10,211 nt of DNA, from assembly GCA_946613955.1 (NCBI GenBank), contig CAMOGC010000045.1, forward strand, positions 1 to 10,211, written 5' to 3'. The notes beneath the pieces are model-generated. The model was not told the DNA's origin, made no database searches, and saw nothing but the letters and a program-made list of their open reading frames with translations. The stretch comes from an uncultured Clostridia bacterium. Its GTDB lineage: Bacteria > Bacillota_A > Clostridia > Christensenellales > Aristaeellaceae. This document shows positions 1-10,211 of the stretch, in pieces (position 1 is the first letter of the stretch; each line of letters begins with the position of its first letter). Position numbers and translations under genes: made by a program.

Positions 1-1258
1 AGTCCGCGGCCATCCATTTGGCGACGGCCACCTTCTGCTGGTTGCCGCCGGAGAGGTTCCGGACCAGCTGGCGGACGGAGGGGGTTTTGATGCCCAGCTT
101 TTCCACGTATTCCTCGCCGGCCTGATCAATTTTCCGCTTGTTCAGGAAGGACGCCCTGCAGTATTTGTCCAGGGAGGCGGCGGTGACGTTGAAGCTGACC
201 GTCTCGTTGACCAGGACGCCTTCCTTGCGCCTCTCCTCCGGCACCAGGGCGATGCGGTTTTTCAGCGCCTGGGAGGGGTTTTTGATCTTCAGCTCCTGCC
301 CGGCCATTTTGACCACGCCGCCGGTTTTCTCGTAAGCGCCGAAAATGGTTTTGCACAGCTCGGATTTTCCGGCGCCCACCAGCCCGGCGATGCCGACGAT
401 TTCGCCGCGGCGGACGTGGAAGGAAACGTCGTTGACCTTTCCGTCCGCGCCGGAGAGGTGCTGGACGGTAAAGAGATCCTCGCCGATTTGCGCCACCTCC
501 TTGGGGAAGTTTTCCTCGAAGGAGCGGCCCAGCATCTTGTCCACGATTTCCTTGGTCGTGGTCTGGGGGGTGATTTCCGTGGTATCCACCACCATGCCGT
601 TGCGCATGACGGTATAGCGCTCGCAGATCCGGATAATTTCGTTAATCCGGTGCGAGATAAAGATGATGGCGATGTTTTCCGTCGCCTGGAGATGCTTGAC
701 CAGGGAGAAAAGCTCCTCCGTTTCCGTATCCGACAGCGGGGCGGTGGGCTCGTCCAGAATCAGGAAATTGCATTCGTTGACGATGGCCCGGGCGATCAGC
801 ACCATCTGCTTCTGCGCCAGGGAAAGATTCTGGACCAATGTATGCGTATCGACCTGAATATTCAGACGCTGGAGCACCTTTTCCGCCTCTTTGTAAAGCT
901 TCCTCCAGTTCATGAAATACCGGCCGTTCATGACGGTGTCATTCAGGAGGACGTTCTCCGCCACGGAAAGGGTGGGGATCAGCGCCATATCCACTTCCTG
1001 ATATACGATTTGGATGCCCAGCTTTTTCGCAGCCAGCGTGCTGCGCAGGTCCACGACCTTATCATTCAGATAAACCTCTCCGGTATAATCCGGATTCGCG
1101 CCGGCCAGCACCTTCATCAGGGTGGATTTTCCGGCGCCGTTGGCGCCCACCAGCGCATGGATTTCGCCCGTGGTCACCTCAAAATTCACATCCGTCAGGG
1201 CCTTGACGCCCGGAAACTCGATGGAGACGTTCCGGGTTCCGAGTCTGATCTTTTCCAT
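1..1258 (-). CDS. Sugar ABC transporter ATP-binding protein (RbsA/MglA type, two nucleotide-binding domains), 3' end cut by window edge
   Basis: Cytoplasmic ATPase that powers a monosaccharide ABC importer. The first 419 residues are visible; the family is usually about 500 long, so the C-terminus lies beyond position 1. First domain: Walker A GANGAGKS with K44, Q-loop Q87, a degenerate signature LSLAQ at 145-149, Walker B D169-E170 (LILDEPTA), switch H203 (FISHR). Second domain: Walker A GLVGAGKS with K298 and signature LSGGN at 402-406. A degenerate first signature and an LSGGN-type second signature are usual in RbsA/MglA/XylG proteins. The ATG at 1258 is preceded by an AAAGGAG-like ribosome site about 9 bases away. 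The gene follows the binding-protein gene on the same strand after a 113-base gap with a strong hairpin. The substrate cannot be read from the ATPase; the divergent mtnK/mtnA genes suggest a 5-modified ribose (inference). Confidence 0.95.
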   Translation of the reverse strand, partial: MEKIRLGTRNVSIEFPGVKALTDVNFEVTTGEIHALVGANGAGKSTLMKVLAGANPDYTGEVYLNDKVVDLRSTLAAKKLGIQIVYQEVDMALIPTLSVAENVLLNDTVMNGRYFMNWRKLYKEAEKVLQRLNIQVDTHTLVQNLSLAQKQMVLIARAIVNECNFLILDEPTAPLSDTETEELFSLVKHLQATENIAIIFISHRINEIIRICERYTVMRNGMVVDTTEITPQTTTKEIVDKMLGRSFEENFPKEVAQIGEDLFTVQHLSGADGKVNDVSFHVRRGEIVGIAGLVGAGKSELCKTIFGAYEKTGGVVKMAGQELKIKNPSQALKNRIALVPEERRKEGVLVNETVSFNVTAASLDKYCRASFLNKRKIDQAGEEYVEKLGIKTPSVRQLVRNLSGGNQQKVAVAKWMAAD

Positions 1259-1308
1259 ACGTCGATTCTCCTTTGATCCCCGGGAACGGGGCAGGATGAT
1301 GGAAGAAA

Positions 1309-1336
1309 GGGGATCGGAGCCAGCGCTCCGACCCCC
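1309..1336 (-). terminator. Intercistronic hairpin between binding protein and ATPase genes (partial terminator or mRNA 3'-end stabiliser)
   Basis: Arms at 1309-1320 and 1325-1336 pair over 12 bp (one G-U wobble on the minus-strand RNA) around a 4-base loop. On the minus strand it is followed by TTTCTTCC, a weak U-tract. It lies just after the binding-protein stop. Such hairpins commonly let the binding protein be made in excess over the ATPase and permease. A smaller 5-bp hairpin at 1278-1291 sits just ahead of the ATPase ribosome site. The structure is seen directly; partial termination is inferred. Confidence 0.6.
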
Positions 1337-1371
1337 TCGTTTTCAGTAAAGCCGGAATGGGGCCGCTCTGA

Positions 1372-2478
1372 TTACTTGTGGATCAGATCGGCGGGCATCC
1401 AGTCGGCCACGCTCAGGTAGCCCAGGTTGCCGTAGGTCTCGCCGGCGATCTCGCCCAGGTTCTCCACGGTGGAGGTGTCCTTCAGAGAAGTCGCCATGAT
1501 GGCGGTGCCGGGAACTTCAACCACGTCCACACCGTAATTGCCGGTGGCGGGGTCATAGATCTTGTCATATTCGCCGGCGATTTCCAGCAGCAGCAGCCGC
1601 ATGGCGATTTCGCCGTTCATGGTCCAGTCGGTGGTGCCGGCGGCCATCCAGATTTCCGGATGGTTCTGCATGTTGGTCACGTCGACCTGGTCGATATCCA
1701 CGGAAGCCATGGGCAGCGCGTTCTCGCCGGAGAAGTTGCTGTTTTCGGAGATGGCGTTGTAGACGCCCTGGCCGTACAGATCGTAGTACACCACGATGCC
1801 GTCCACATCCGCCCGGTCAATGGACTGGAGATAAGCGGCGGTCACGGAGTTGGCGGAATCCATGGAATCCTGCAGGGGCTGCACTTCGCCGACGGTCTTG
1901 ATCTTGCCGGCGGCTTCGTATTCCTGCCAGCCGACTTCACGGCGATCGAAGGGGCTGTTGTAGTTCGGGCCGCGCCAGACCTTGATCAGGCGGACGCCCT
2001 CGCCGTACTTGGCGATCATGGCGTCCAGCAGAACCGTGACCAGGCTCTTATCCTGCTGGAACATCTGGGTAACGCCGGGGATCTTCTGATACTCGCCGTC
2101 GGTATAGAACTGGGTGTCGAAGCAGACGATCTTCAGATCGGGATACTGCTCGGTAATGCCCTTCAGGAAGGTATAGGAGCCGTCCTGGTTGCCGTGGCTG
2201 ACCAGCAGGCCGTCATAGCCCGCGGCGGCACAGGCGGAAATCCGATCCTGCCAGGCGTTGAAATCGCCGTCGCAGAAGATCACGTCGCATTCCACGCCCA
2301 GCGCCTTGCACAGGTCGACGCAGGAATTGGCCCACATCTGGAAGATGGTGGCGGAAGGAAGCAGCATAATGTAGGCTACCTTCTTGCCGGCCACGGGGTT
2401 GGTCGCCTCGGCGGTGCCGGCGACGCACATCATGACCGCCAGCATCAGGGCCAAAACAACAGCGATGATTTTCTTCAT
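1372..2478 (-). CDS. Exported sugar-binding protein of an ABC transporter (type I periplasmic-binding-protein fold)
   Basis: A 368-residue solute-binding protein that should capture a sugar outside the membrane and pass it to the permease. Residues 1-25 form a signal peptide: Lys2-Lys3, a hydrophobic stretch, then an A-E-A signal peptidase I-like site. Cys18 is preceded by V-M-M, which does not fit a lipobox, so a lipoprotein is not supported. The mature part begins with a beta-strand typical of the Peripla_BP_4 sugar-binding group (KKVAYIMLLPSATIFQMW), followed by alternating strands and helices such as YDGLLVSHGN and VDGIVVYYD. The ATG at 2478 was chosen because AGGAGG lies about 6 bases upstream and the signal peptide starts there. 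A longer reading frame from 2598 would run through the promoter. It is first in a transporter operon and divergent from the aldolase/mtnK/mtnA genes. Ligand unknown; 5-methylthioribose, 5-deoxyribose or a related pentose is inferred from context only. Confidence 0.92.
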   Translation of the reverse strand: MKKIIAVVLALMLAVMMCVAGTAEATNPVAGKKVAYIMLLPSATIFQMWANSCVDLCKALGVECDVIFCDGDFNAWQDRISACAAAGYDGLLVSHGNQDGSYTFLKGITEQYPDLKIVCFDTQFYTDGEYQKIPGVTQMFQQDKSLVTVLLDAMIAKYGEGVRLIKVWRGPNYNSPFDRREVGWQEYEAAGKIKTVGEVQPLQDSMDSANSVTAAYLQSIDRADVDGIVVYYDLYGQGVYNAISENSNFSGENALPMASVDIDQVDVTNMQNHPEIWMAAGTTDWTMNGEIAMRLLLLEIAGEYDKIYDPATGNYGVDVVEVPGTAIMATSLKDTSTVENLGEIAGETYGNLGYLSVADWMPADLIHK

Positions 2479-2501
2479 GGGAAACCTCCTTTTTATTATT
2501 C

Positions 2502-2517
2502 GGGCGAATCTTCGCCC
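2502..2517 (-). other. Hairpin in the leader of the binding-protein mRNA
   Basis: GGGCGAA and TTCGCCC form a perfect inverted repeat with a 2-base centre. It lies between the predicted transcription start (about 2524) and the AGGAGG ribosome site of the binding-protein gene. It may act as a 5' stabilising stem or modulate translation. It is too short to be a riboswitch, and on the plus strand nothing ends there. Confidence 0.45.
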
Positions 2518-2530
2518 TTTCGTTGGCATC

Positions 2531-2559
2531 ATCTTATCACCCGGCGCGGGGGTTGTCAA
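2531..2559 (-). promoter_or_regulatory. Sigma-70-type promoter of the sugar ABC transporter operon
   Basis: Read on the minus strand: TTGACA (2559-2554), a 17-base spacer, then TAAGAT (2536-2531). The -35 is consensus and the -10 matches 5 of 6. An A/T-rich stretch upstream of the -35 could serve as an UP element. The ATG of the binding protein lies about 45 bases past the expected start site. Confidence 0.85.
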
Positions 2560-2589
2560 GTTCATTTTTCTAAATTTTTTCAAAGATTT

Positions 2590-2617
2590 ACTAAACAAAA
2601 CGGGCCAGATGTTTAGT
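2590..2617. promoter_or_regulatory. Candidate operator A: inverted repeat ACTAAACA / TGTTTAGT
   Basis: Two perfect 8-base arms (2590-2597 and 2610-2617) are separated by 12 bases. The same octamer recurs at 2735-2742. The site lies about 30 bases upstream of the transporter -35 and about 75 bases upstream of the aldolase -35. This suits a dimeric regulator acting on both promoters. The regulator family (LacI, DeoR, GntR or other) cannot be told from this. Confidence 0.55.
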
Positions 2618-2691
2618 TTACCGGAAAAATGATGTCAAATCTGGTCATTAAATTTCTGAAGAGGAAAGGCGGAAAAAAGTTTTTCCATGGG

Positions 2692-2721
2692 TTGACAAAC
2701 AGAGAAATAAACAACTATAAT
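2692..2721 (+). promoter_or_regulatory. Consensus sigma-70-type promoter of the aldolase-to-pduL gene set
   Basis: TTGACA (2692-2697), an 18-base spacer, then TATAAT (2716-2721). Both hexamers match consensus exactly. Transcription would start near 2728, giving a leader of about 60 bases before the ATG at 2791. So strong a core promoter next to operator-like repeats suggests control by repression. Confidence 0.88.
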
Positions 2722-2734
2722 AAACGAGAAAACG

Positions 2735-2758
2735 TGTTTAGTCTTTGTTTATCTAAAC
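2735..2758. promoter_or_regulatory. Candidate operator B overlapping the start region of the plus-strand transcript
   Basis: TGTTTAGT at 2735-2742 is the third exact copy of the octamer found in operator A. It is followed by GTTTA-TC-TAAAC at 2747-2758, a 5+5 palindrome with a 2-base centre. It lies 14-37 bases past the -10 element, where a bound repressor would block clearance or elongation. Operator function is inferred from the repetition and position. Confidence 0.55.
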
Positions 2759-2790
2759 GCTTCGGATCGAACAGAGAGGAGTCTTTCGTT

Positions 2791-3660
2791 ATGATGCTGA
2801 GCAAATATCCGACCGACGAGGAAGCCAAACGGATGATCGTGGAGATCGGCCGCCGCATGTATGATAAGAATTTTGTGGCCGCCAACGACGGGAACATTTC
2901 CGTAAAGGTGGACGACGACATTCTCTGGACCACCCCCACCGGCGTAAGCAAGGGCTTCATGACGGAGGACATGATGGTCAAGATGCGGCTGGACGGGACC
3001 ATCCTTTCCCAGGGGGAGCGCGGCCCGTCCAGCGAGGTCAAGATGCATCTGCGGATCTACAACGAGAATCCGGAGGTGAACGCCGTGTGCCACGCCCATC
3101 CCCCCGTCAGCACCAGCTTCGCCATCGCCGGCATGAGCCTGGATCTGGCGATATACCCGGAGGCGCTGGTGAATCTGGGGACGGTGCCCTGCGTGCACTA
3201 CGAGGCCCCCGGCTCCCAGGGGATTCCGGATTCCATCGCCCCCTACTGCCGGGACTACAACGCCCTGCTGCTGGCCAACCACGGCGCCGTGGCCTGGGGC
3301 GCCAGCCTGACGGAGGCGTGGTACCGGCTGGAGTCGACGGAGCACTACGCGATGGTCATCATGTATACCAGCAATATAATTGGAAAGGCGAATGTGCTTT
3401 CCTGCCAGCAGATCAACGAGCTGATCGCCATCCGGGAGAAGATGGGCATTACCGGCGGCGGGGTGCCGGCCTGCTCGCCGGTGGCGACCAACGAGCGGGA
3501 CGTGGTGTCCTCCTCCGGGCCGGTCAACCCCGCGCCGCGGCTGAAGACCTTCGGGCAGGACGGCGCCTCCGGATGCGGATGCGGCGGGAATCAGGCCGCC
3601 TCCGAGGAGGAGATCCGGGCGATTACCCGGGCGGTCATGGAGCGGCTGCGGGGCGGCTGA
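2791..3660 (+). CDS. Class II (zinc) aldolase with C-terminal encapsulation-peptide-like tail; likely 5-(methylthio/deoxy)ribulose-1-phosphate aldolase
   Basis: A 289-residue class II aldolase of the FucA/AraD superfamily, which splits a ketose 1-phosphate into DHAP and an aldehyde. Visible family residues: phosphate-binding N32-D33-G34-N35 and T50-G51, catalytic E82 (in SSE, before the MH), and zinc ligands H101, H103 and H164 (CHAHP and NHG). The core ends near residue 218; FucA itself is about 215 long. A Gly/Pro/Ser-rich linker follows (about 219-270, including GCGCGG at 261-266), then an amphipathic helix at 271-286 (SEEEIRAITRAVMERL) that resembles a microcompartment encapsulation peptide. 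The ATG at 2791 has AGGAG 9 bases upstream. The in-frame ATG at 2629 lies ahead of the promoter, so it is rejected. The downstream mtnK and mtnA point to 5-methylthioribulose- or 5-deoxyribulose-1-phosphate as substrate. L-fuculose-1-phosphate remains possible by family alone. Confidence 0.9.
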   Translation: MMLSKYPTDEEAKRMIVEIGRRMYDKNFVAANDGNISVKVDDDILWTTPTGVSKGFMTEDMMVKMRLDGTILSQGERGPSSEVKMHLRIYNENPEVNAVCHAHPPVSTSFAIAGMSLDLAIYPEALVNLGTVPCVHYEAPGSQGIPDSIAPYCRDYNALLLANHGAVAWGASLTEAWYRLESTEHYAMVIMYTSNIIGKANVLSCQQINELIAIREKMGITGGGVPACSPVATNERDVVSSSGPVNPAPRLKTFGQDGASGCGCGGNQAASEEEIRAITRAVMERLRGG

Positions 3661-3666
3661 GCGCAA

Positions 3667-3701
3667 GACAGGGGAAGACAGGGGGACGGTTCTTCTGTCC
3701 T
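3667..3701. repeat. REP-like short palindromic element in the aldolase-flavoprotein gap
   Basis: GACAGGGG at 3667 is followed by GACAGGGGGACGGTTCTT and CTGTC; the arms GACAG (3677-3681) and CTGTC (3695-3699) pair. The run GGGGACGGTTCTTCTGTC resembles, from memory, a short repeat scattered in many Bacillota genomes and linked to REP-associated transposases. It lies in a 195-base gap that holds no convincing gene. Only one copy is in this window, so its repeat nature is recalled rather than shown. Confidence 0.45.
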
Positions 3702-3855
3702 GGATGGCCACGCGCATGGGAGACGAACCGGAATCGGTGAGACGGCCGGCGCCCTCTGGAAACGCGAGGCGAGAAGCTGAGCTCGCTCAGGCAGAAGGCC
3801 GGGGCCGCCCTGAGACGCGGCGGAAGAGACGGAGGAAAAGAGGAGGAGCTTCGCG

Positions 3856-5187
3856 ATGCGGGCCATTATCATCGGCGGCGTGGCCGCGGGCATGAGCGCG
3901 GCCAGCAAGCTGCGCCGGGCGGACGGGAAGGCGGAGATCGTGGTTTACGAGCGGGGAAGCTTCCTTTCCTACGGCGCCTGCGGGCTGCCGTATTTCATCG
4001 GCGGATGGAACGACGAGGCGCAAAAGCTGATCGCCCGGACGCCGGAGGAGTTCCGGGAGATGGGGATCGAGACGCATCTGCGGCACGAGGTGCTGCGGGC
4101 GGATTTCGAGAAAAAAACGGTTCTGGTTCGGGATCTGGAGAGCGGAAGGGAATTTACGGACCGGTGGGACAGGCTGATGATCGCCGTCGGATGCCGCAGC
4201 GCGGCGCCGCCGGTGCCGGGTTTCGATCTGCCGGCGGTATTCTCCCTGCGGTCCATGGAGGACGGGCTGCTGCTGCGGGAGGTGTTCCGCCTGCCGGGGG
4301 TGCGGCACGTCGTCATCGTCGGGGGCGGGGCCATCGGCGTGGAGATGGCGGAGGCCCTGACCCGGCTGGAAAAGCGGGTGACGCTGCTGGAGGGCGCCGA
4401 GCGGCTGCTGCGGCCCTTCGAGCCGGAATTCGCGGAGCTGGCCGCCCAGGAGCTGGAGAAAAACGGCGTTGCCGTCCGGCTGAAAACCCGGCTGAAGGCG
4501 ATCGAGGAAAAGGGCGACCACCGCGTTGTCCGGACGGAGGGGGAGGAGATTCCCTGCGACCTGGTGCTGATGGCGGCGGGGATCCGGCCGGAGACGGGGT
4601 TCCTGAAGGAGAGCGGGATCCGCATGGCGAGAAACGGCGCCATCCTGGTGGACCGGGAGATGCGGACCAGCCTGCCGGACGTGTATGCGGCGGGGGACTG
4701 CGCCACGTGCTATCACCGGGTGCTGGAGGAGGATTACTACCTCGCCCTGGGCACGGTGGCCAACAAGACCGGCCGGATCGCCGGGGCGAACATGGCCGGC
4801 GGGCACGAGAAATTCCCGGGCGTGCTGGGAACGGCGGCCATCAAGGTGTTCGACCTGGAGATGGGGCGGACCGGGCTGAGCGAGACGGAGGCGCAGCGGC
4901 TGGGCATTCCGGTGAAAACCAAAATGGTGTCCACCCAGGATCATCCCGCCTACTATCCGAACCCGAGCAAACTGGTCATCAAGCTGATCTATGACGCGCG
5001 GACAAGGAGGCTGCTGGGGGCGAATACGGCCGGAACACACGACGCGGTCATGAGGACGGACATCTTCGCCGTGGCGATCCACGCGGGGATGACGACGGAG
5101 GAGCTGGGGATGGTGGATCTGGCCTACGCGCCGCCCTTCGCCTCCGTCTGGGACGCGGTGCATATCGCGGCCAACGCGGCGAAATAA
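3856..5187 (+). CDS. FAD-dependent pyridine-nucleotide disulfide oxidoreductase, CoA-disulfide reductase / NADH oxidase family
   Basis: A 443-residue soluble flavoprotein, full length for coenzyme A-disulfide reductases and related NADH oxidases. FAD-binding GGVAAGMSAA at residues 7-16 opens the protein. A single redox cysteine, C42, sits in SYGACGLPY, the pattern of the one-cysteine subgroup rather than the CxxxxC of glutathione/lipoamide enzymes. The NAD(P)H-binding GGGAIG is at 156-161, and the second FAD motif VYAAGDCA at 276-283 includes D281. The C-terminal dimerisation domain contains HPAYYPN. No rhodanese domain is attached. AGGAGG at 3841-3846 is 9 bases before the ATG. In this gene set it could keep CoA reduced, reoxidise NADH from aldehyde oxidation, or act on another disulfide. 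The sequence alone does not decide between CoA-disulfide reductase, NADH oxidase and polysulfide reductase. Confidence 0.88.
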   Translation: MRAIIIGGVAAGMSAASKLRRADGKAEIVVYERGSFLSYGACGLPYFIGGWNDEAQKLIARTPEEFREMGIETHLRHEVLRADFEKKTVLVRDLESGREFTDRWDRLMIAVGCRSAAPPVPGFDLPAVFSLRSMEDGLLLREVFRLPGVRHVVIVGGGAIGVEMAEALTRLEKRVTLLEGAERLLRPFEPEFAELAAQELEKNGVAVRLKTRLKAIEEKGDHRVVRTEGEEIPCDLVLMAAGIRPETGFLKESGIRMARNGAILVDREMRTSLPDVYAAGDCATCYHRVLEEDYYLALGTVANKTGRIAGANMAGGHEKFPGVLGTAAIKVFDLEMGRTGLSETEAQRLGIPVKTKMVSTQDHPAYYPNPSKLVIKLIYDARTRRLLGANTAGTHDAVMRTDIFAVAIHAGMTTEELGMVDLAYAPPFASVWDAVHIAANAAK

Positions 5188-5362
5188 TACCGGAGCAGAG
5201 AAAGCGCGCGGCGGAGGCCCGGCGAGGGACGGAAAAGTGCCGCCGGAAAGCGGTTGAATCAGTATCACCGGAGGCGGCCCCGCGCGGGAACGGAAACGAG
5301 TGACCTGACGCCGCGCCGGATGGCGGAACCCGGGCGGGGAAACGACAAAAGAGGTGACCGGA

Positions 5363-6130
5363 TTGGAGAAGATTTGCGGCCTGGCGGAAGCCATCGGCAG
5401 CATTCCGGACGGGGCGATGGTGGGCCTGGGCGGCAATACGCTGAACCGGGCGCCCATGGCCGCCGTACGGGAGATCATCGCCCAGGGAAAACGGGGCCTG
5501 CGGCTGGTCAAGACCGCCGGCGGGCTGGATATCGACCAGCTTTGCGGGGCGGGATGCGTGGCGACGGTGGATGCCGGGTTTATCAGCTGCGAGAGCGAAT
5601 TCGGGCTGGCGCAGCATTATCGCAGGGCCGTCCAGAAGGGCGAGGTCGTCGCCCACGAGCACGCCTGCTATACGGTCATTTCCGCGCTGCGGGCGGCCAG
5701 CTACGGGATTCCGTTTATGCCCGTGCGGGGCCTGCAGGTCAGCGATTTGCGGAAGGTCAACGATTATTTCCGGGACGTGACCGACCCCTTCGGCGGGGAA
5801 ACGCTGGCGGCGGTTCAGGCGCTGGCGCCGGAGGTCTCCATCCTCCACGTGCAGGAGGCCGACGCCCGGGGAAACGGCCGGATCTGGGGGCCGGTCTATG
5901 AGGACGCGCTGCTGGCGAGGGCTTCGGGGCGGGTCATCCTGACGGCGGAGCGGATCGTCGGGGACGGGTATTTCGCCTCCCAGAGGGAAAAGCCCCAGAT
6001 TCCCGGATTCCTGGTCAGCCACGTGGTACACGTCCCCCGCGGCGCGGCTCCCTGCTGCTGCCCGGAGGAATACGGGGTCGACGGGGAGGCCGTTTCCCGG
6101 GCCCTGGCGGAAGGGGGCGACAGAGCATGA
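5363..6130 (+). CDS. CoA-transferase family subunit A (GctA/IpdA-like)
   Basis: A 255-residue protein of the class I CoA-transferase alpha-subunit family, related to glutaconate CoA-transferase A and the IpdA subunit of the cholesterol-ring hydrolase IpdAB. Family-like segments are DGAMVGLGGN near residues 16-25, the TAGGLDIDQLCGAG region at 51-64, and the stretch VVAHEH with E99. From memory that glutamate aligns near the acidic residue proposed to be catalytic in IpdA. The TTG at 5363 was chosen because GAGGTGA (5351-5357) sits 5 bases upstream. An alternative GTG at 5354 would lie inside that ribosome site. The stop overlaps the next start (ATGA), so the two subunits are translationally coupled. 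A 175-base gap of no clear content precedes it. The acyl-CoA substrate is unknown; in context it could be the acyl-CoA made from the aldehyde released by the aldolase. Confidence 0.8.
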   Translation: MEKICGLAEAIGSIPDGAMVGLGGNTLNRAPMAAVREIIAQGKRGLRLVKTAGGLDIDQLCGAGCVATVDAGFISCESEFGLAQHYRRAVQKGEVVAHEHACYTVISALRAASYGIPFMPVRGLQVSDLRKVNDYFRDVTDPFGGETLAAVQALAPEVSILHVQEADARGNGRIWGPVYEDALLARASGRVILTAERIVGDGYFASQREKPQIPGFLVSHVVHVPRGAAPCCCPEEYGVDGEAVSRALAEGGDRA

Positions 6131-6852
6131 GGGAAACCGTAAGGCCGGGGGATATGATGGCGGTATGCCTGGCCCGGCTGATCCACAACGGGGACCGGGT
6201 GTTTCACGGGGTATCCTCCCATCTGCCGATGATCGCCGTGCTGCTGGCCCGGCATACCCACGCGCCGGAGGCGGTGCATCTCAACATTCCCGGCGGCGTC
6301 AACCCCGAGGAGCCGACCCTGCGGAGCTTTACCAGCGCGGGCAGCGAGCTGTGGGAGAGCGCCGAGGCGGCGTTTCCCCTGATGGACGTGTTCGACCTCA
6401 GCATGCGGGGCGGGCTGGACGTGGCCTTTCTCAGCGGGGTGCAGTTTGACCAGGAGGGAAGGGTCAACGCCTCCGTCATCGGGGATTATCGCCGGCCGAA
6501 GGTGCGCCTGCCCGGCGGGGCGGGGAGCGCCGTGCTGATCCCGACGGCGAAGCGGGCCGTCATCTGGCGGACGAAGCACGACCGGCGGACGTTTACCGAA
6601 AAGGTGGATTTTATCACCGCGAAGGGGCACGTCAGCGACATCGTGACGCCGCTGTGCCATTTCCGGATGGAGGCGGGAAAGCTGATCGTGGAGAGCGTGC
6701 ATCCCGGCCACAGCCTGGCCGAGGTGGCGGAGAACACGGCCTTCCCCGTGCAGTACTACGAGGAACGGGAAACCCCGCCGCCCACGGAGGAAGAGATGTG
6801 GTGGCTGCGGCGGATCGACCCCCGGGATCTGCGGAGCATCGAGTTCCGGTAA
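6127..6852 (+). CDS. CoA-transferase family subunit B (GctB/IpdB-like), apparently lacking the catalytic glutamate
   Basis: A 241-residue partner of the preceding gene, with a 4-base ATGA overlap. Family signatures include LPMIAVLLAR near 33-42, FLSGVQFDQEGRVNASVIGDY in the middle with its Gly-rich follow-up LPGGAGSA, and the C-terminal PTEEEMWWLRRIDPRDLR, which recalls both GctB and IpdB. In GctB the nucleophile is a glutamate in an ES-G motif at residue 54. In a hand alignment from memory, the matching stretch here reads LNIPGGVNP, with Ile54 in that place. IpdB also lacks the glutamate. The pair may therefore be a hydrolase or C-C-bond enzyme on CoA thioesters rather than a transferase, or a transferase that uses another residue. 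The family assignment is firm; the reaction is open. Confidence 0.8.
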   Translation: MRETVRPGDMMAVCLARLIHNGDRVFHGVSSHLPMIAVLLARHTHAPEAVHLNIPGGVNPEEPTLRSFTSAGSELWESAEAAFPLMDVFDLSMRGGLDVAFLSGVQFDQEGRVNASVIGDYRRPKVRLPGGAGSAVLIPTAKRAVIWRTKHDRRTFTEKVDFITAKGHVSDIVTPLCHFRMEAGKLIVESVHPGHSLAEVAENTAFPVQYYEERETPPPTEEEMWWLRRIDPRDLRSIEFR

Positions 6853-6868
6853 GGGCAGCCTGATTTTG

Positions 6869-6897
6869 TTCAGCCCCTTCGCGGAGGGGAGCCTGAA
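6869..6897 (+). other. Intercistronic hairpin upstream of mtnK
   Basis: CCCCT (6874-6878) pairs with AGGGG (6885-6889), and TTCAG (6869-6873) with CTGAA (6893-6897), leaving a 3-base bulge on the 3' arm. It is followed by an A-run, not a U-run, so it is not an intrinsic terminator on the plus strand. It may be an mRNA processing or stability element in the 89-base gap. Confidence 0.4.
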
Positions 6898-6941
6898 AAA
6901 AATAAAACATGCGTGAAAAACGCGGAAAGGAAGCGGGTACC

Positions 6942-8156
6942 ATGGCAAGGTATGACAAGTATTTCCTGATGAAAGAAGAGGACGTGGCGGGCTATGTGCA
7001 GACGAAATACGCCGGACATTTCGCCCCGGACGCGAAGCTGACCGTAAAGGAAATCGGCGACGGCAACCTGAACTACGTCTTCAGGGTGGTGGAGGAGGCC
7101 ACCGGGAAATCCATGATCGTCAAGCAGGCGGGAGAGGCCCTGCGGATTTCCGCCGAGATGCACGTGTCCACCGACCGCAACCGCATCGAGAGCGAGATTC
7201 TGCAGCTGCAGGATAAGCTGGCCCCCGGCTCCGTGCCGAAGATCTACGGATACGACACGACCATGTGCGCCTGCGCGATGGAGGATCTGAGCGATCACGA
7301 GCTGATGCGCTACGCCCTGATGCGGCACGAGATCTTCCCGCGCTTCGCCGACGATATTTCCACCTATATGGTCAACACCCTGCTGAAGACCACGGACGTG
7401 GTGCTCGAGCACAAGGAGAAAAAGGCCCTGGTGAAGAGCTTCATCAATCCGGAGCTGTGCGAGATTACGGAGGATCTGGTGCTGATGGAGCCCTATAACG
7501 ATCTGAAGGGCCGCAACATCGTCGATCCCCTGATCGCCGATTTCGTGAAGAAGGAGCTGTATGGGGACAAGGCGCTGCATCTGGCCGTGGCGAAGCTGAA
7601 GTTCGAGTTCATGAACAACGCCCAGGCGCTGCTGCACGGGGATCTGCATACCGGATCCATCTTCGTGAAGAAGGATTCCACGAAGGTGTTCGATCCCGAA
7701 TTCGCCTTCTTCGGCCCCATGGGATACGACATCGGCAACGTGATCGCCAACCTGATTTTCGCCTATGACAGCGGCGTGGCCGCCGGGGCGGAGGAATTCA
7801 ACGCCTGGGTGCTGCGGACCATCGAGGAGACGATCGACCTGTTTATCGCCAAGTTCCGGAAAACCTTCGACGAATGCGTCACCGAGCCGATGGCCAGGGT
7901 CGAGGGCTTCCGGGAGGAATATCTGAAGAGCATTCTCAGCGACACCGCCGCCTATACCGGCACGGAGCTGCACCGCCGGACGGTGGGCATGGCCCAGGTC
8001 AAGGACGTGACCACCATCGCCGATCCCGAAAAGCGGGCGTACGCGGAGAAGCTGAACATCATCGCCGGCAAGGACTTTATCCTGAACCGGACCGGCTTTG
8101 CCGCCGGGAAGGATTTTGTGGACGCGGTCAGACGGGCGGAGGCGGCCCTGAAGTAA
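6942..8156 (+). CDS. mtnK: S-methyl-5-thioribose kinase (may also act on 5-deoxyribose)
   Basis: A 404-residue kinase that phosphorylates the C1 hydroxyl of 5-methylthioribose with ATP; length matches the family (about 397 in Bacillus subtilis). It has the protein-kinase-like APH fold. The nucleotide loop is GDGNLNYVFRV (39-49) with a likely ATP-contacting K62. The catalytic loop is HGDLHTGS (232-239) with D234 as base, and the metal-binding DPEF (251-254) includes D251 and E253. These correspond, off by one, to D233, D250 and E252 of the Bacillus enzyme as remembered. The ATG at 6942 was chosen over an in-frame ATG at 6909 because GGAAAGGAA lies about 11 bases upstream and the family N-terminus begins there. 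mtnA follows 18 bases downstream. No mtnW/mtnX/mtnB/mtnD is visible, which favours the aldolase shunt over full methionine salvage. Confidence 0.96.
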   Translation: MARYDKYFLMKEEDVAGYVQTKYAGHFAPDAKLTVKEIGDGNLNYVFRVVEEATGKSMIVKQAGEALRISAEMHVSTDRNRIESEILQLQDKLAPGSVPKIYGYDTTMCACAMEDLSDHELMRYALMRHEIFPRFADDISTYMVNTLLKTTDVVLEHKEKKALVKSFINPELCEITEDLVLMEPYNDLKGRNIVDPLIADFVKKELYGDKALHLAVAKLKFEFMNNAQALLHGDLHTGSIFVKKDSTKVFDPEFAFFGPMGYDIGNVIANLIFAYDSGVAAGAEEFNAWVLRTIEETIDLFIAKFRKTFDECVTEPMARVEGFREEYLKSILSDTAAYTGTELHRRTVGMAQVKDVTTIADPEKRAYAEKLNIIAGKDFILNRTGFAAGKDFVDAVRRAEAALK

Positions 8157-8174
8157 GGAAAGGCGGAAAAGAAA

Positions 8175-9278
8175 ATGGCGGACGAAAAAAACATCATGAG
8201 CTACGAGACCGTGGAGCTGGACGATGAGAACAGCGCCCTGGTCATTCTGGACCAGACGAAGCTGCCCTACGAGGTGGAGATCCTGCATCTGAAGACCCAG
8301 CAGGAAATCTGGGACGCCATCTACCTGCTGCAGGTGCGCGGCGCGCCGGCCATCGGCGTGGCGGCGGGCTTCGGCGTTTATCTGGCGGCGAAGGAGATTC
8401 AGGCCAGGAACCGCGCCGAATTCGACGCGTTATTCCACGAGGCCAAGGAGTTTCTGAATTCCTCCCGGCCCACGGCCGTCAACCTGAGCTGGGCGCTGAA
8501 CCGGATGGAGCAGGTGCTTCTGGATCATCCGGAGGCGAGCGTTGAGGAGATCCTGGCGCTGCTGAAAAAGGAGAGCGAGGAGATCAAGGCCGAGGACGTA
8601 TGGATGTGCCGCTCCATCGGCGAATACGGCCTGACCCTGATCAGGGACGGGGACGGCATCCTGACCCACTGCAACGCCGGGCAGCTGGCCACCTCCAAAT
8701 ACGGCACGGCCCTGGCGCCCATTCATCTGGGCCGGGAAAGGGGCATGAACTTCCGCGTTTTCTGCGATGAGACCCGCCCCCTGCTGCAGGGCGCGCGGCT
8801 GTCCTCCTTCGAGCTGATGGCCGACGGGGTGGACACCACCGTCATCTGCGACAACATGGCCAGCCAGGTCATGAAAAACGGATGGGTCAACGCGGTGTTT
8901 GTCGGATGCGACCGGGTGGCGGCCAACGGGGACGCCTGCAACAAGATCGGCACCTCCGGGGTGGCCATTCTGGCGAAGTATTACGGCATTCCCTTCTACG
9001 TTCTGGGCCCCACCTCCACCATCGACATGAGCATCGAGAAGGGCGAGGACATCACCATCGAGCAGCGCAAACCCGAGGAAGTCACCGAGATGTGGTACAA
9101 ACAGCGCATGGCGCCGGCGGGGGTCAAGGTCTACAATCCGGCCTTCGACTTCGCGGATCATGAGCTGATCAGCGGCATCGTAACCGAATACGGGATCGCC
9201 CGGCCGCCCTACAGCGAGAGCCTGAAGGAAATCTTCCGGAAGAAGGCGGAGGCGGAAAAAGCGAAGAAGGCGAAGTAA
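8175..9278 (+). CDS. mtnA: S-methyl-5-thioribose-1-phosphate isomerase
   Basis: A 367-residue aldose-ketose isomerase converting 5-methylthioribose-1-phosphate (and in shunt pathways 5-deoxyribose-1-phosphate) to the ribulose-1-phosphate. It is related to eIF2B regulatory subunits. Visible motifs are RGAPAIG at 55-61, [13 protein letters not shown] near 96-107, THCNAG with catalytic C166, and GCDRV with catalytic D246, followed by [11 protein letters not shown]166 and D246 match the Cys/Asp pair of the Bacillus enzyme. The C-terminus ends in a Lys/Ala-rich tail (about 350-367), slightly longer than the roughly 353-residue Bacillus protein. The ATG at 8175 has AAGGAAAGG about 11 bases upstream; a second in-frame ATG at 8196 is less favoured. 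With the preceding kinase it feeds the aldolase at 2791-3660 with its ketose-1-phosphate substrate. Confidence 0.96.
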
Positions 9279-9335
9279 GGCGAAGCCTGCGAAAGAAACG
9301 CGAATCACGCGGAACCAGGCGAAAAAGCACGACGA

Positions 9336-9384
9336 TCAGGAGACCGGCCCGGCCCCGTTTGCGGGGACCGGGCGGAGCTCCTGA
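9336..9384 (+). other. Strong GC-rich hairpin in the mtnA-pduL gap
   Basis: Inner stem: GCCCGGCCCCG (9347-9357) pairs with 9362-9373 (one bulged A at 9367) around a TTTG loop. Outer stem: TCAGGAG (9336-9342) pairs with CTCCTGA (9378-9384), separated by a small internal loop. The ribosome site GAGGAG (about 9386-9391) starts right after it and stays unpaired. No U-tract follows, so full termination is unlikely. It probably sets mRNA stability or translation of pduL. Confidence 0.5.
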
Positions 9385-9399
9385 ACGAGGAGACGAAAG

Positions 9400-10211
9400 A
9401 TGAACGAGAAGGAACTCCGGTTCGCCGTGACCCGGATGGTGCTGACGGAGCTGGCGGCGGCGGGAGAATACTGGGTGCCGGTGGCGGTTTCCAGCCGCCA
9501 CTGCCATCTGTGTCCGGCGGATCTGGAGCGCCTCTTCGGCCCGGGGCATACGCTGACGCCCCTGCGCCCGCTGTCCCAGCCGGGGCAGTTCGCGGCGGAG
9601 GAGAAGGTGACGCTGGAAACCCCGAAGGGGCGGATGAGCCTGCGGGTGGTGGGGCCGGTCCGGAAGGAAACCCAGGTGGAGCTGAGCCTGACGGACGCCC
9701 GCCAGATGGGGCTGAGCCCGCCCATCCGCCTGTCCGGGGAGCTGGAGGGCTCTCCCGGCGGCCGGCTGACAAACGGGGAGAAAAGCGTGGAGATTTCCCG
9801 CGGGATCATCGCCGCGGCGCGCCACCTGCACATGAGCCCGGAGGAGGCGGCGGCCTACGGCCTGCGGGACGGGCAGGAGGTCAGCCTGCTCTCCGGCGGC
9901 CCAAGGGGCGGAACGATGGAGCATCTGATCGTCCGGGCCGGAAAGGGCCACCTGATGGAGGTGCATCTGGACACGGACGAGGCCAACGCCTTCGGGCTGC
10001 GGGGCGGAGAGCTGTGCCGGCTGATCCTGCCGGGCGCGCCGGTATTCGGGTTCCCCGGGAGGGAAGGCGCGGCGGCGCCCCGGAGCGCCTGGGCCGGCTA
10101 TTCGGGCGGGAACATCGGGGAGGCGCGGAGAAGCCCGGCCTGGCCCGTCTTCCCTGGCGGGAGCAACGGGGAGGCGCGGAGAAGCCCGGCGCCGCCGGCT
10201 TCGGGGGAGAC
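9400..10211 (+). CDS. pduL: Phosphate acyltransferase of the PduL type with N-terminal encapsulation-like helix and unusual C-terminal extension, 3' end cut by window edge
   Basis: PduL exchanges CoA and phosphate on short acyl-CoAs (acetyl- or propionyl-CoA to the acyl phosphate) and is the usual phosphotransacylase of microcompartment metabolosomes. Residues 4-18 (KELRFAVTRMVLTEL) form an amphipathic helix like the PduL encapsulation peptide. The core then shows SSRHCHL (metal ligands H34, H36), LSQPGQFAAEE (58-68), GPVRKETQVE with R88, ARHLHM (H142, H144) and VHLDTDEANA (H189), all hallmark PduL motifs. The usual PduL core would end near residue 210. Here the frame stays open for at least 60 more residues in a Gly/Pro/Ala/Arg-rich segment with a 17-residue repeat. 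The ATG at 9400 has GAGGAG about 8 bases upstream. It would turn the acyl-CoA derived from the aldolase product into an acyl phosphate for ATP formation. A pathway acylating aldehyde dehydrogenase is not in the window. Confidence 0.93.
   Translation, partial: MNEKELRFAVTRMVLTELAAAGEYWVPVAVSSRHCHLCPADLERLFGPGHTLTPLRPLSQPGQFAAEEKVTLETPKGRMSLRVVGPVRKETQVELSLTDARQMGLSPPIRLSGELEGSPGGRLTNGEKSVEISRGIIAAARHLHMSPEEAAAYGLRDGQEVSLLSGGPRGGTMEHLIVRAGKGHLMEVHLDTDEANAFGLRGGELCRLILPGAPVFGFPGREGAAAPRSAWAGYSGGNIGEARRSPAWPVFPGGSNGEARRSPAPPASGE
10105..10190 (+). repeat. 51-bp (17-codon) tandem repeat in the pduL C-terminal extension
   Basis: Two units with a 51-base period share an identical 23-base run (10117-10139 and 10168-10190). 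In protein they read as x-G-G-x-x-G-E-A-R-R-S-P-A-x-P, and a degenerate earlier copy (FPGREG to SAWAG) seems to precede them. A period divisible by three keeps the frame. The repeat may continue past the window. Confidence 0.8.

Follow-up and report, generated by a model that had tools for sequence, protein, structure and literature searches.

We analyzed a 10,211-nucleotide stretch of DNA (hereafter the window) from an uncultured Clostridia bacterium of the family Aristaeellaceae (GenBank assembly GCA_946613955.1, contig CAMOGC010000045.1, forward-strand positions 1 to 10,211). It carries nine genes: a sugar importer pair on the minus strand and, on the plus strand, seven genes running from a class II aldolase to the phosphotransacylase PduL (Table 1). 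A preliminary description of this DNA had recognized the sugar kinase MtnK, the isomerase MtnA, the aldolase, and PduL, and had predicted a metabolosome that salvages 5-methylthioribose or 5-deoxyribose. All four assignments are borne out by family matches. In our reading the window is probably the first half of a metabolosome operon for a 5-deoxypentose, that is, 5-deoxyribose and/or 5-methylthioribose, by-products of S-adenosylmethionine (SAM) use.

Structural matches agree with the family assignments. MtnK aligns with the methylthioribose kinase 2olc (E = 3.2e-72) and retains the motifs HGDLHTGS and DPEFA, MtnA aligns with the methylthioribose-1-phosphate isomerase 2yrf (E = 1.9e-103), and PduL also passes the NF011652 cutoff (217 bits, cutoff 209). 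Residues E82, H101, H103, and H164 of the aldolase are invariant across 26 aligned sequences, and its best match in a fold search is the 5-deoxyribulose-1-phosphate aldolase DrdA (6BTG/6BTD; E = 2e-18). In an aldolase tree, which carries a long-branch warning for L135 and others, the window groups with L001-L003 (96/99; L numbers denote loci and G numbers genomes). The window was said to hold no shell gene, and none was found in it, nor was an aldehyde dehydrogenase gene; it stops inside pduL.

What lies beyond pduL can be read in relatives. A scan with the aldolase across a collection of species genomes yielded 76 loci, and shell genes were sought in the genomes of 26 of them (L001-L026), the other 50 (L027-L076; tblastn identity, 39 to 48%) lying outside this search. 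The bacterial microcompartment (BMC) shell families PF00936 (BMC-H) and PF03319 (BMC-P) occurred in 21 and 20 of the 26 genomes, respectively, and PF00936 lay on the same contig as the aldolase in 16. Fifteen of these (G001-G003, G005-G014, G016, and G019) have aldolase, MtnK, MtnA, and PF00936 on one contig, with MtnK and MtnA in the same gene run as the aldolase and a distance of 7.8 to 13.2 kb between the aldolase end and the first PF00936 gene. The sixteenth, G025 (KSB1), has aldolase, PduL, aldehyde dehydrogenase, and shell genes but neither MtnK nor MtnA in the locus. Shell genes sat on other contigs in G004, whose aldolase contig ends in the first CoA-transferase gene, in the Treponema genomes G018 and G021, in G024, and in G022 (Clostridium sp. 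CX1), which keeps the kinase-isomerase-aldolase genes on the aldolase contig. No shell was found in G017 and G020, where the contigs are short, in G023 and G026, or in the metagenome-assembled genome (MAG) G015, which has aldolase and MtnA only. This last locus (L015, 9824-11941) pairs an 81 to 82% identical aldolase, whose tail lacks the helix motif, with MtnA alone, and is possibly a decaying copy.

In the three closest relatives, G001, G002, and G003 (aldolases 92, 91, and 89% identical to the window's), pduL is followed directly downstream, on the same strand, by an acylating aldehyde dehydrogenase, two BMC-H genes, a FucU/RbsD homolog, a LacI-type regulator, four BMC-P genes, and an iron alcohol dehydrogenase, the families being assigned by scanning G003's copy. 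The order from aldolase to pduL is identical, on one strand and closely packed, in 13 genomes (L001-L003 and L005-L014). The presence of shell or acylating aldehyde dehydrogenase genes within about 20 kb downstream, or near homologous loci, had been set in advance as the test of the metabolosome prediction, and what stands after pduL in the closest relatives supports it; the expected recurrence of mtnK, mtnA, and aldolase near shell genes is likewise seen in the 15 genomes above and in one more, G138, described below. Given 89 to 92% aldolase identity and the same gene order, the shell genes presumably continue after pduL in the window's organism as well.

The shell half varies among members. 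The aldehyde dehydrogenase of L079 scores 652 bits on NF011927 (cutoff, 403), and the same locus has an iron alcohol dehydrogenase; the FucU homolog lies just over the L-fucose mutarotase cutoff (142.7 versus 141 bits). An alcohol dehydrogenase is present in 7 of the 12 shell loci read (L077-L079, L081, L084, L088, and L090), and some others have a PduS-like protein instead. Other members carry a PduS-like RnfC protein and BMC-T (L083 and L085) or DhaK-DhaL and a divergent ribokinase (both L088); in further loci such extra genes were judged by size alone. The aldolase of Treponema G019 is followed, in this order, by a binding protein, an ATPase, a permease-like open reading frame (ORF), MtnK, MtnA, PduL, BMC-P, aldehyde dehydrogenase, an ORF the size of PduS, a double-BMC-domain protein, BMC-H, and two BMC-P. 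Seven MAGs (G001, G002, G003, G005, G007, G011, and G014) each have two PF00936 and four PF03319 matches, a shell set without tandem-domain BMC-T in which pentamer genes outnumber hexamer genes. The DhaK-DhaL-like pair of L088 (10446-12062) lies within the shell operon between the mutarotase and LacI genes; in G002 two extra genes that match DhaK and DhaL in size stand between FucU and LacI, and pairs of roughly that size occur in L078, L081, L084, L087, L089, L090, L091, and L121. The proposed pathway would yield DHAP without it; such a pair may provide a second entry by C1 phosphorylation of a free ketose, or dihydroxyacetone salvage. Genes were called with a codon-bias caller, as longest-ORF calling gave antisense shadows in GC-rich DNA; the caller misplaced some starts (several aldehyde dehydrogenase N termini) and called few genes in AT-rich loci, for which plain ORFs and BLAST were used. 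A search of viral contigs for the aldolase gave eight stretches that fit a pattern, none of them a relative.

Shell genes adjoin the same enzyme families in another arrangement as well. Of 97 relatives of Treponema G019 searched for MtnK, 14 were over the cutoff, and the search led to G138, where a DeoR-type regulator, BMC-H, BMC-P, aldehyde dehydrogenase, a 199-residue double-BMC protein (BMC-T), two BMC-P, and a class II aldolase sharing 30% identity with that of the window are followed by MtnK (488 bits), a further DeoR, a binding protein, MtnA, and an ATPase, the run being interrupted by one opposite-strand gene after the first DeoR. Because this locus is differently ordered, MtnK, MtnA, and aldolase are associated with shell genes in more than one gene order. 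Of 100 genomes sampled as relatives of G003 (G003 included), 9 had MtnK over the cutoff and 14 had PF00936, with both in 8, MtnK only in 1, shell only in 6, and neither in 85 (Fisher P = 1.4e-7, uncorrected for kinship). Separately, ten genomes have a divergent MtnK-like kinase (183 to 266 bits to TIGR01767, below the cutoff of 275) less than 1 kb from a PF00936 match: L123 (G099), L124 (G120), L125 (G160), and, by position, G300, G394, G414, G470, G503, G539, and G591. Three of these ten kinases adjoin a longer shell locus with PduL and aldehyde dehydrogenase.

The preliminary description had also seen encapsulation-like helices on two of the window's enzymes, the aldolase and PduL. The aldolase helix stands: an AlphaFold model shows a confident body, a linker (residues 238-270) with a predicted local distance difference test score (pLDDT) below 50, and then the C-terminal helix. 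To score such ends, we built a cargo profile from the N-terminal stretches of eight relatives' aldehyde dehydrogenases and applied it to the ends of 391 distinct locus proteins, with 690 ends of 345 proteins other than aldolase, PduL, and the aldehyde and alcohol dehydrogenases as the null. Only 1 of the 690 null ends scores as high as the window's aldolase tail, and the same is true of the mean for aldolase C termini (12.3; 14 proteins). The PduL helix is weak in the window (2.1, with 44 of 690 null ends as high), while PduL N termini average 4.1 (12 proteins; 2.5% of null ends as high). Alcohol dehydrogenase N termini average 1.1 (7 proteins; 7.2% of null as high; best single score, 12.8), and the ends of MtnK and MtnA score about -5 to -7. 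Among the 60 top-scoring proteins, 32 come from the four cargo families and 28 do not, 7 of the latter being the second CoA-transferase subunit. Scores are low for the aldolases of L022, L023, and L015, which have no linked shell; 384, 117, and 283 of the 690 null ends, respectively, reach them. The hydrophobic moment was discarded as a test for encapsulation peptides in favor of the profile, as the MtnK C terminus outscores the aldolase tail and the measure does not discriminate.

Table 1. Genes and other features of the window
Feature	Position	Strand	Evidence
Sugar ABC importer ATPase, RbsA/XylG/AraG type	2..1258	-	PF00005 E 8.6e-52; cut by window edge
Importer sugar-binding protein, Peripla_BP_4	1372..2484	-	PF13407 E 8.3e-11
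Inverted half-sites CTAAAC...GTTTAG, putative regulator sites	2591..2616	.	Pattern
Consensus sigma-70-like promoter TTGACA-18-TATAAT ahead of aldolase	2692..2721	+	Exact pattern
Inverted half-sites GTTTAG...CTAAAC right after promoter, putative operator	2736..2758	.	Pattern
Class II (metal) ketose-1-phosphate aldolase, C-terminal encapsulation-peptide-like helix	2791..3660	+	PF00596 E 4.9e-48
Aldolase C-terminal helix, residues 272-287	3604..3651	+	AlphaFold model; profile match 13.4
CoA-disulfide reductase/NADH oxidase-like flavoprotein	3856..5187	+	NF007123 533 bits, cutoff 458
CoA-transferase-fold subunit A, glutaconate CoA-transferase family	5354..6130	+	PF01144; 5mzw chain A E 3.8e-41
CoA-transferase-fold subunit B	6127..6852	+	PF01144; 5n03 chain D E 4.5e-29; 4-base overlap with subunit A
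MtnK, 5-methylthioribose/5-deoxyribose kinase	6909..8156	+	TIGR01767 418 bits, equivalog cutoff 275
MtnA, aldose-1-phosphate to ketose-1-phosphate isomerase	8175..9278	+	TIGR00512 414 bits, equivalog cutoff 279
PduL phosphotransacylase	9400..10211, open at window end	+	PF06130 210 bits, full domain residues 27-200

The best NCBIfam matches of the importer ATPase, every one below its cutoff, are ATPases of the xylose, arabinose, and ribose types, and the gene keeps the same position in L001-L014; an NCBIfam search with the sugar-binding protein returned no family at E 0.001. The flavoprotein reaches 440 bits on TIGR03385, below the cutoff of 579, and its top PDB match is the NADH oxidase 6ruz. 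In the Clostridia loci L001-L003, L005-L014, and L016 the CoA-transferase-fold pair comes after the aldolase; Treponema L019 and Clostridium CX1 lack it. Subunit B of the pair can be aligned with AibB and glutaconate CoA-transferase, and because what we take to be the catalytic position seems not to be kept there, we name no activity for the pair.

Between the importer and aldolase genes lies an exact promoter, which favors the aldolase start at 2791 over a longer frame that opens at 2629. All four copies of the hexamer CTAAAC/GTTTAG in the window fall between these two genes. The hexamer is present in the 330 bases before the aldolase in all 16 loci compared (the window, L001-L014, and L016), with 39 copies in 5,280 upstream positions versus 17 in 290,421 positions elsewhere, and is the most enriched of the three hexamers common to all 16; AACTAA has a higher enrichment ratio but is found in 10 of 16. 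Clostridium CX1 and both Treponema loci tested lack the hexamer before the aldolase. We infer that the LacI-type regulator of the locus may bind at CTAAAC/GTTTAG. Exact upstream palindromes were set aside as a shared signal, as they differed from locus to locus, and hexamer counts were used instead.

Taken together, the gene families would make up the following route. The divergently encoded ABC importer would take up the free sugar, and the fucose-mutarotase homolog may help to provide the right anomer. MtnK would phosphorylate C1 and MtnA would isomerize the product to a ketose 1-phosphate; both are probably cytosolic because neither end of either protein resembles an encapsulation peptide. 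The ketose 1-phosphate would then enter the shell, where the class II aldolase, encapsulated to judge by its tail, would be expected from its family to cleave it to dihydroxyacetone phosphate (DHAP) and acetaldehyde or methylthioacetaldehyde. DHAP would exit and the aldehyde would be retained, and, following the standard metabolosome scheme, the aldehyde and alcohol dehydrogenases and PduL would convert it to alcohol and acyl-phosphate, with NAD and coenzyme A (CoA) recycled inside.

The substrate is inferred to be 5-deoxyribose and/or methylthioribose. The kinase, isomerase, and aldolase of Bacillus thuringiensis convert 5-deoxyribose to DHAP and acetaldehyde, and of six other sugars tried its kinase DrdK accepted only 5-methylthioribose (PMC6079011). 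Genes for sugar transporters can belong to similar clusters, and the cluster of one species also has a fucose mutarotase homolog (PMC6079011). Universal methionine salvage was set aside: acireductone dioxygenase (MtnD, PF03079) was over the cutoff in 0 of 27 genomes, with weak subcutoff matches in 3, in a search that covered MtnD among the downstream enzymes MtnB, MtnC, and MtnD.

Several observations weigh against the 5-deoxypentose metabolosome. The window itself ends before any shell gene. The aldolase is only 28% identical to DrdA, with YgbL and FucA nearly as close, so its fold leaves the substrate unfixed. Some loci carry a DhaK-DhaL pair or a ribokinase, superfluous to the proposed pathway. 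In G138, PduL was not recognized in the part of the locus that was scanned, and the aldolase tail is weak against the profile (37 of 690 null ends as high). In a class-wide draw, MtnK was over the cutoff in 18 of 391 Clostridia genomes, and of these only G003, the center of the draw, has MtnK in a shell locus, the other 17 being judged by the contigs and positions of PF00936, so that fragmented assemblies could hide links; with 1 such genome in 391, this type of locus is rare. Finally, a similar aldolase C-terminal helix (3 to 17 of 690 null ends as high) is carried by the shell-less genomes G573, G410, G346, and G450 (L147-L150), which have an mtnK-mtnA-aldolase cluster and aldolases on the same branch (58 and 59% identity for the two aligned, about 64% by BLAST for all four). 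PF00936 is absent in these four, where the search covered that family and not PF03319, and the tail alone is therefore no proof of encapsulation. Either the shell has been lost there or the helix has another use, such as clustering without a shell.

The compartment may be real but serve chiefly another sugar, such as D-ribose, D-arabinose, or L-fucose, with the MtnK/MtnA homologs or DhaK-DhaL making ribulose 1-phosphate or a related ketose 1-phosphate and the aldolase releasing glycolaldehyde or lactaldehyde. The narrow pass of the FucU homolog, the ribokinase or DhaK-DhaL of some loci, the kinship of the importer ATPase to xylose, arabinose, and ribose ones, and the description of the B. thuringiensis aldolase and others like it as promiscuous (PMC6079011) all fit this view. 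Even so, we consider it unlikely: MtnK and MtnA exceed their equivalog cutoffs by wide margins, no fucose isomerase or fuculokinase was recognized among the proteins scanned (not every ORF was), and the related DrdK accepted none of the other pentoses and hexoses offered to it (PMC6079011). It is less probable still that an ordinary cytosolic shunt to DHAP happens to adjoin a pdu/eut-type operon in some relatives and takes no part in the compartment pathway. Shunt genes do occur without linked shell genes (L022, L126, L131, and L147-L150), but chance proximity sits poorly with the single strand, close packing, and constant aldolase-to-pduL order of 13 genomes, with the tail common to aldolase and aldehyde dehydrogenase, and with the second, differently arranged shell locus of G138; moreover, no other aldehyde-producing enzyme was recognized among the identified genes.

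The last alternative differs from the 5-deoxypentose metabolosome in the origin of the sugar and overlaps it in mechanism. The system might serve to clear 5-deoxyadenosine and methylthioadenosine made by the cell itself, with the aldehyde confined by the shell. Methylthioadenosine/S-adenosylhomocysteine nucleosidase, over the cutoff in 13 of 26 genomes, would suit such internal disposal; its gene is never on the aldolase contig, and this, with the count of 13 in 26, weighs against the 5-deoxypentose metabolosome. A sugar importer beside or in the locus and a mutarotase within it in many members point instead to uptake from outside, and we give internal disposal only a small chance. Importer and FucU likewise point to an external sugar. 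We lean slightly toward the view that anaerobic Clostridia and Treponema scavenge 5-deoxyribose and methylthioribose shed by other cells and ferment them in a dedicated shell organelle.

The proposed system resembles several known ones and coincides with none that we found. A class II aldolase is characteristic of PVM, PVM-like, GRM5, ACI, MIC, and SPU-like loci (PMC8217296, PMC8156839, PMC4207490). The PVM/GRM5 fucose/rhamnose metabolosomes share the class II aldolase as aldehyde source, the aldehyde dehydrogenase, and shell genes (PMC4207490, PMC8217296), whereas the loci described here are entered via MtnK and MtnA, have a shell set of four BMC-P and two BMC-H genes in the closest relatives, and, in the clostridial type, have LacI in place of DeoR as regulator (DeoR does occur in G138). 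Among the proteins scanned, which were not every ORF, there was no glycyl radical enzyme and, FucU alone excepted, no fucose/rhamnose entry enzyme. In SPU metabolosomes, as in the scheme proposed here, an aldolase splits a pentose phosphate to triose phosphate and acetaldehyde within a shell, but there the aldolase is of the DeoC type and RpiB is employed (PMC8217296); neither DeoC (PF01791) nor RpiB (PF02502) was among the proteins scanned, a survey that included no direct search of the loci. The ACI, MIC, and PVM-like types have a PF00596 aldolase, that of ACI with a C-terminal encapsulation peptide (PMC8217296; for MIC and PVM-like, PMC8156839). MtnK and MtnA go unmentioned in the available descriptions of these types, whose supplementary gene lists lay outside the comparison, so that an unnamed overlap is possible. 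The KSB1 locus L025 also sets a PF00596 aldolase beside aldehyde dehydrogenase, PduL, and shell genes, without MtnK/MtnA.

From the other side, the DHAP shunt or 5-deoxyribose disposal pathway (MtnK-MtnA-Ald2; DrdK-DrdI-DrdA) clusters the same three enzyme families, at times with transporters and in one species with the fucose mutarotase homolog (PMC6079011, PMC10986504), but the portions of these descriptions available to us mention no shell, and the word microcompartment occurs 0 times in PMC10986504. Conversely, thioribose, deoxyribose, and kinase occur 0 times in the main text of the BMC catalog (PMC8217296). A methylthioribose kinase gene adjoining the pdu cluster of Acetobacterium woodii has been termed unrelated to BMC function (PMC7593272), and the available part of PMC10266427 holds nothing on this locus. 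Our literature search, which did not extend to supplementary BMC tables, found no paper linking MtnK or 5-deoxyribose to a shell pathway; the loci may already stand in the supplementary tables of the BMC catalog under an unknown-function label.

The type of a catabolic microcompartment is defined by its aldehyde-producing enzyme, and here the aldehyde would derive, via MtnK and MtnA, from a sugar left over from SAM chemistry. The proposal offers a testable substrate for a shell locus for which no published function was found in the literature searched, and it is a candidate explanation of how anaerobes use 5-deoxyribose and methylthioribose excreted by other bacteria. It also suggests that where MtnK and MtnA lie near an aldolase, automatic annotation as methionine salvage is inadvisable. 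If the reading is correct, the same enzyme families would have come together with a shell in two or more loci of different build (the Clostridia/Treponema type and the G138 type), and the recycling of SAM by-products would be linked to microcompartments. Fermentative growth on 5-deoxyribose could then be possible, in contrast to E. coli ATCC 25922, whose shunt supports growth on this sugar but not by fermentation (PMC10986504).

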